From Candidatus Micrarchaeaceae archaeon (lineage in GTDB: Archaea > Micrarchaeota > Micrarchaeia > Micrarchaeales > Micrarchaeaceae): a stretch of DNA of 43,606 nt. Where the stretch lies: the NCBI GenBank assembly GCA_027310755.1, contig DAIDAE010000004.1, positions 1-43,606 on the forward strand, written 5' to 3'. The notes under the pieces were generated by a model. It was not told the origin of the DNA. It saw only the letters and a program-made list of their open reading frames with translations, and did not search any database. The translations under genes were made by a program, and so were the position numbers. Shown here in pieces: positions 23,102 through 23,956 of this stretch (position 1 is the first letter of the stretch; the number at the start of each line of letters is the position of its first letter).

Positions 23102-23803
23102 TCATCTTATTATAGGGTATTCCCCTTTTGGCTTCTTAAGAACATGATACCTGAACATGTTATCTACATGGAAAACAAAATAGCCCCAAATACCCCACGC
23201 CCTGACCCTTCTCGTGCTCGTGTATACAAGTGCCCTGTCCACATACAATATTTTGCCATAGTTCTTCAGTTTGTTCGATAGGTCCCAATCTTCGTATGTT
23301 CTTAATGAAGAATCAAATCCATGAACCTTGTTGAATATATCCCGCCTTACTGCAAAATTTGATCCCACAATGGATGGCCTTCCGAACAGTATGCTGAGCT
23401 TAACAAAAAGGATGGATACAAACTTATATCCAAATCCTACTCCTCTGCCTACACCCTTTTCGAGCGGCAATATCGGCCCTGTGGCCGCAATAATATCATC
23501 GTTGAAGGCGGTCGAATATGCCATCAGCAAACCATTTGATGGCTTTGTATCCGCATCAAGAAAAACTAGTATATGGCCCTTGGCGTGCCTTGCACCGGCA
23601 TTTCTGCCGGCCGCCATGCCTTTTTTCCTGTCAATGATGACAGTTGCGTATTTCTTTGCGATCTGGCGGGTCTTATCCGAGCTGCCCCCGTCAGAAACTA
23701 TTGTCTCAAAATCCTTGAACGATTGCTTCTTCAGGCCTTCCAGGGAATTCCGAATGTATTTCTCCTCGTTTAATGCAGGGATGATTACACTTATTTTTAC
23801 CAA
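23102..23803 (-). CDS. glycosyltransferase family 2 (GT-A)
   Basis: VKISVIIPALNEEKYIRNSLEGL, SDGGSSDKTR, VFLDADTKP. Listed ORF runs into tRNA-Leu; a TTG start at 23803 is the plausible start. Confidence 0.85.
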   Translation of the reverse strand: MVKISVIIPALNEEKYIRNSLEGLKKQSFKDFETIVSDGGSSDKTRQIAKKYATVIIDRKKGMAAGRNAGARHAKGHILVFLDADTKPSNGLLMAYSTAFNDDIIAATGPILPLEKGVGRGVGFGYKFVSILFVKLSILFGRPSIVGSNFAVRRDIFNKVHGFDSSLRTYEDWDLSNKLKNYGKILYVDRALVYTSTRRVRAWGIWGYFVFHVDNMFRYHVLKKPKGEYPIIR

Positions 23804-23814
23804 TTTATCACTTT

Positions 23815-23921
23815 TGGTGCAGGGGGTGAGATTTGAACTCACGAAGGCGCTAAGCCACAGGATCTTAAGTCCTGCGCATTTTTCTGTGGCGTTGTGCCAG
23901 ACCAGACTCTGCCACCCCTGC
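23815..23921 (-). tRNA. tRNA-Leu (anticodon UAA), CCA encoded, expanded D-loop/possible intron
   Basis: Acceptor GCAGGGG/CCCCTGC-A-CCA; anticodon arm CAGGA-CTTAAGA-TCCTG; long variable arm TGGCTTAGCGCCTTC; T-arm GTGAG-TTCAAAT-CTCAC; D-loop ~31 nt. Confidence 0.93.
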
Positions 23922-23956
23922 TTTGAATGATTAATTAACTTACAAAAAGATATTAA

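Follow-up and report, generated by a model that had tools for sequence, protein, structure and literature searches.

The minus strand of a 43,606-nucleotide (nt) stretch of DNA from Candidatus Micrarchaeaceae archaeon (assembly GCA_027310755.1, contig DAIDAE010000004.1; referred to here as the window) carries a gene for tRNA-Leu(UAA) with an insert in its D-loop. The precursor is read from position 23921 to 23818, comprises 104 nt to A73 and is followed by an encoded CCA end at 23815–23817. Apart from this CCA, the sequence revealed the anticodon UAA, a 15-nt variable arm and the T-loop TTCAAAT, with acceptor, anticodon and T stems all intact. Its D-loop, in contrast to the 13 nt (GAGCYTGGTCAAA or similar) found in the genome's four remaining Leu tRNAs (UAG, CAG, GAG, CAA), has 31 nt and holds TCTG-GTC-TGGC-ACAAC-GCCA-CAGA. 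This bears out an original prediction, made from the sequence alone, of an unusually long D-loop at this place; its interval 23883–23906 spans exactly TCTG to CAGA on the minus strand. Because of the 31-nt D-loop, the unspliced gene was missed by both ARAGORN and the Rfam tRNA model, and the only tRNA reported in the window was a tRNA-Gln. Though such a failure would also fit a decayed gene in a cell served by another Leu(UAA) tRNA, the three stems are intact, the exons are conserved over 27 genera, and the tRNAs of this genome, collected from search hits, included all five Leu anticodons once each and no second Leu(UAA) besides 23818–23921, leaving decay with a probability close to nil.

For the molecule as a whole, the minimum free energy (MFE) fold (-38.7 kcal/mol, z = -2.5) was the one the original prediction had described. 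Its outer helix, here called H, is formed by UCUG (23903–23906; Y16, C17, Y17a, and G18) and CAGA (23883–23886), followed on the 5' side by the bulge GUC (23900–23902). A second helix, h', pairs UGGC (23896–23899) with GCCA (23887–23890) and is closed by the apical loop ACAAC (23891–23895), while a run of four A residues (23879–23882) follows H on the 3' side. Each of 62 parsed ortholog sequences from 27 genera of the family had both helices and the 3-nt bulge, with the common architecture GCR-RAG-[YCYG]-GNN-[YGGY]-loop-[RCCR]-[CRGA]-AAA(N)-YGC and few single-position exceptions. The bulge read GTC in 35, GTT in 19, and GAA in eight orthologs, and AAA(N) was kept in 62/62, while the apical loop is not conserved and ranged from 3 to 20 nt. 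Compensatory changes were seen in the D-stem, the H helix, and h' alike. In H, 92.9% of the cells were paired and one inner pair covaried as U-A, C-G, or U-G, while h', with end-pair mismatches in a few cases, was present in all parsed orthologs and showed compensatory changes such as UGAC/GUCA and UGGU/ACCA. Overall, 96.1% of the cells were paired, compared with 26–47% when the partners were slid, and 17 cells were changed on both sides, a number which none of 500 shuffles reached. The same helices were predicted independently by RNAalifold. The fold of the insert is not a product of chance. BLAST searches with the gene returned full-length, insert-bearing orthologs throughout the genus, while family-wide matches to a query with the insert removed started exactly after GGTC, since the insert interrupts the targets.

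In archaeal pre-tRNAs, the nucleotides of the 5' exon that precede the 5' bulge pair with the intron to form the central 4-bp helix, and the splice sites lie in the adjacent 3-nt bulges (PMC4090602). Therefore, TCTG/CAGA would be the central helix and TGGC/GCCA would lie inside the intron. For the ARMAN-2 enzyme, cleavage between bulge nucleotides 2 and 3 has been described (PMC12397907), and a central helix TCTG/CAGA thus places the cuts at GU↓C (between U23901 and C23900) and AA↓A (between 23881 and 23880). The result would be a 20-nt intron, CTGGCACAACGCCACAGAAA (23881–23900), at position 20/21, a listed site for non-canonical introns (PMC4090602). The exons would then be 23901–23921 and 23818–23880, giving a mature form of 84 nt plus CCA. 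The strict hBHBh' motif was not found, as there is no second clean 3-nt bulge beside an outer helix h; with AAA(N) on its 3' side, opposite an unpaired GAG, the motif is relaxed rather than strict.

Based on the sequence comparisons, the insert is very probably a non-canonical intron of pre-tRNA-Leu(UAA), which an epsilon-type endonuclease would cut at GU↓C and AA↓A and whose removal would restore an ordinary D-loop. In such a scheme, the precursor would fold as a relaxed bulge-helix-bulge (BHB) of the HBh' type, with H (Y16-C17-Y17a-G18/CRGA) next to the 5' bulge GN↓N, the h' stem UGGC/GCCA carrying the variable loop, and the A-run on the 3' side facing the unpaired 5'-exon nucleotides GAG. 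A three-unit epsilon-type endonuclease would cut both sides past the second nucleotide of the bulge, and an RNA ligase would join the exons to give a D-loop of the usual 10–11 nt. That the precursor is cut and ligated in this way is an inference, and so are the precise cut positions, which are uncertain by 1–2 nt. Removal of the 20 nt leaves the 11-nt loop GAGTCTGGTAA, comparable to GAATCCGGTAA of the tRNA-Ser of the same genome, and the same cutting rule reduced the D-loops of the orthologs from 28–46 nt to 10–11 nt in 62/62 cases. ARAGORN called tRNA-Leu(taa) in 62/62 spliced and 3/62 unspliced sequences.

While the original prediction of a relaxed intron motif named the right elements, it took TGGC/GCCA as central, which misplaced the splice sites: a bulge-helix-loop (BHL) cut of this kind would put the 3' cut into the apical loop and leave a D-loop of 22 nt. 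Strict conservation of the 3-nt bulge and of the 4-bp helix next to it, with length varying mainly in the loop, would suit such a cut. However, it puts the central helix after the 5' bulge, the opposite of what has been described for archaeal pre-tRNAs, the apical loops go down to 3 nt, and ARAGORN accepted only 15/62 of the products as tRNA-Leu, so that we give this variant hardly any chance. The 22-nt leftover loop, about which the prediction itself had been cautious, is resolved by the 20-nt intron, which leaves 11 nt as in tRNA-Ser.

Applied to other intron-bearing tRNAs of this genome, Gly(CCC), Ser, Arg(UCU), and Leu(CAA), the rule of cutting past the second bulge nucleotide again produced correct mature loops, and the 3' site AA↓A recurs in three of them, Gly(CCC), Arg(UCU), and Leu(CAA). 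When pre-tRNAs were scanned automatically for BHB motifs one at a time, the correct site came out on top in only some cases, tRNA-Leu(UAA) not being among them, as 4-bp matches are abundant within any one sequence; the case for the splice sites is therefore built on the comparative data. A BHB in which the TGGC of the intron pairs with the 3' exon (AAAUGC) was rejected, since no 4-bp helix can be formed. Among the other tRNA genes, tRNA-Leu(CAA) (L038, C61:33707–33804) harbors a 13-nt intron in the T-loop at position 58/59, and BHB cutting there (GTTC/GAAC, AA↓T and AA↓A) gives back TTCAAAT exactly, while tRNA-Gly(CCC) (C12:13939–14022) contains a minimal canonical intron of 11 nt that lacks an intron stem and has an apical loop of 4 nt.

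With respect to the enzyme, the genome encodes a three-unit (epsilon) endonuclease of about 390 amino acids (aa), 63% identical to the ARMAN-2 protein (4FZ2/9W2K). The catalytic triad (Y236, H251, and K282) is conserved throughout, as are R275 and W384, which clamp the bulge, and the residues Y160 and K161 in the ARMAN-specific loop (ASL). Epsilon-type enzymes cleave relaxed motifs (PMC6379350, PMC4033280). Long endonuclease frames (341–580 aa, mostly 380–420) were present in 32/32 sampled genomes of order-mates and outgroups. Co-occurrence of intron and enzyme type was therefore discarded as evidence, being non-discriminating, as long frames also occur in intron-free outgroups; since frames of similar length are found class-wide, the endonuclease is a permissive condition and not proof. 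A second, short endonuclease-like gene (142–231 aa) beside the longer one was seen in six genomes of Micrarchaeota outside this order (G186, G183, G190, G127, G125, and G158).

The distribution of the element was determined with a strict DNA pattern in 301 genomes of the phylum, using the reversed pattern as a control, which gave no match. The strict pattern was present in 129/301 genomes, all belonging to one order of Micrarchaeota, that of Ca. Micrarchaeum, where it was found in 129/164 genomes, namely 68/85 of the family and 61/79 of a sister family, and in 0/137 genomes from other families in the class. Several pattern-negative genomes carry intron variants. In a named collection, nearly all contigs with the D-loop element bore the label Candidatus Micrarchaeota or Micrarchaeaceae, with Candidatus Micrarchaeum sp. 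A_DKE among them, while some were titled Marsarchaeota. The pattern was also seen on contigs titled Nitrosomonadales, Novosphingobium, and Marinimicrobia (L196, L200, and L233), which may be chance matches or mis-binned archaeal contigs. A congener (G003) possesses a tRNA-Leu(UAA) without the intron (GAGCCTGGTCAAATGCG), a clean absence; a shared neighboring methyltransferase gene suggests that this is the same locus. The Rfam tRNA model scored the intronless gene with 50.8 bits, while intron-bearing genes remained under the threshold. Leu(UAA) genes from four outgroup families (L281, L282, L285, and L287) had ordinary D-loops without the insert. A fifth outgroup family also lacked it, its tRNA-Leu(UAA) showing another disruption; in two outgroup genomes (L283 in G174 and L284 in G177), a tRNA-Leu(UAA) without the D-loop insert appears to be interrupted within its anticodon stem, on the 5' strand.

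The original prediction had asked whether relatives share the long D-loop. They do share the insert, but its length varies and it is absent in one congener and in the outgroup families; the comparison is not decisive on its own, though an intron inherited across the order would explain this pattern. A mature tRNA-Leu(UAA) that keeps the insert as a stable extra D-loop hairpin would account for its conservation and stability as well, and the loop of a hairpin would be likewise free to vary in length. A retained hairpin, however, would pair G18, which is needed in the mature tRNA for the contact between D-loop and T-loop. Furthermore, the insert is confined to Leu(UAA) among the five Leu tRNAs, it is cleanly missing in G003 and absent in the outgroup families, and a matching endonuclease of broad specificity is encoded in the genome, all of which makes retention very unlikely. 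Several observations nevertheless fit the proposed intron less well. Conservation of the h' sequence goes beyond what pairing alone needs, the first pair of H is mismatched in 13/62 orthologs (C-A in 12/62, A-A in one), and the 3' bulge has 4 nt in 54/62 orthologs and faces three unpaired exon nucleotides. In addition, the D-loop of the G003 allele is two nucleotides longer than strict cutting predicts; judged by this congener, the boundaries would be 23882–23899 (18 nt).

With regard to the conserved stem, GCCACAG of the intron (23884–23890) is complementary over 7 nt to CTGTGGC (23854–23860), which belongs to the 3' anticodon strand plus variable arm. This complementarity, GCCAC(A/G)G with C(U/C)GUGGC, is possible in 59/62 orthologs, with an R/Y correlation: a C in the anticodon stem always goes with G as the variable base of the intron. 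Where the D-loop partner is U, the variable base of the intron is G in 7/7 orthologs with C in the anticodon stem, compared to 11/47 with U (Fisher p = 0.0002; 0.006 when collapsed by genus, relatedness being only roughly controlled). As the main fold, the long-range helix GCCACRG/CYGUGGC was rejected, since its stability fell short of that of the MFE fold by an average of 3.3 kcal/mol; within 1 kcal/mol of the MFE, it was found in 13/62 orthologs and the BHB fold in 44/62. It is conceivable, if rather unlikely, that the intron was kept across the order for a role in the precursor, where a competing helix might steer or time the folding or processing of the pre-tRNA.

Directly upstream of the tRNA gene and on the same strand lies a PAC2-family gene (PF09754; 23957–24763, minus), which was also found next to the tRNA in six relatives of the same genus (L043, L045, L048, L050, L051, and L053). 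On the plus strand, a frame of 200 aa (23328–23930) runs antisense over the tRNA and a glycosyltransferase gene and is almost certainly not a gene. The few weak hits to Rfam families around this frame (tmRNA and Plastid-ycf2) look spurious.

Compared with known systems, the Leu(UAA) intron resembles the non-canonical archaeal introns with relaxed BHB motifs (HBh', hBH, and BHL) of Thermoproteales, Nanoarchaeum, and ARMAN-1 and -2, as it would be short, would lie at the listed D-loop position 20/21, has a 3-nt 5' bulge beside a 4-bp helix and a variable loop, and is accompanied by a broad-specificity endonuclease in the genome. Those introns are patchy, whereas the present one occurs across two families within a single order and shows unusually strong conservation of its stem sequence. 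Pre-tRNA-Cys(GCA) of the BHL type is a substrate of the epsilon2 endonuclease of Ca. Micrarchaeum acidiphilum ARMAN-2 (PMC12397907). The precursor described here is similar to such substrates in its relaxed motif and its closely related lineage, whose own enzyme has kept the catalytic and ASL residues at the identity given above. The intron in L038 has the same cutting geometry, with the 4-bp helix GTTC/GAAC in the 5' exon, but lies in the T-loop, is shorter, and has no h' stem. The literature already covers non-canonical introns, D-loop positions, and the broad cutting of the ARMAN-2 enzyme, and the Leu(UAA) intron may even be among those given for ARMAN-2 in a 2011 paper on epsilon2 and the ARMAN-2 tRNA introns; in the literature examined, we found no test of this Leu(UAA) D-loop intron. 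The distinctive points, as judged from the genomes compared, are the apparent order-wide retention and the highly conserved stem of the putative intron.

Altogether, such an intron would account for the apparent gap that arises across a whole archaeal order because ARAGORN and the Rfam tRNA model overlook tRNA-Leu(UAA), and the family of 62 sequences provides candidate natural substrates for an endonuclease recently solved in complex with RNA. Its distribution also suggests that a non-canonical tRNA intron may be inherited vertically over an order, beyond mere gain and loss.
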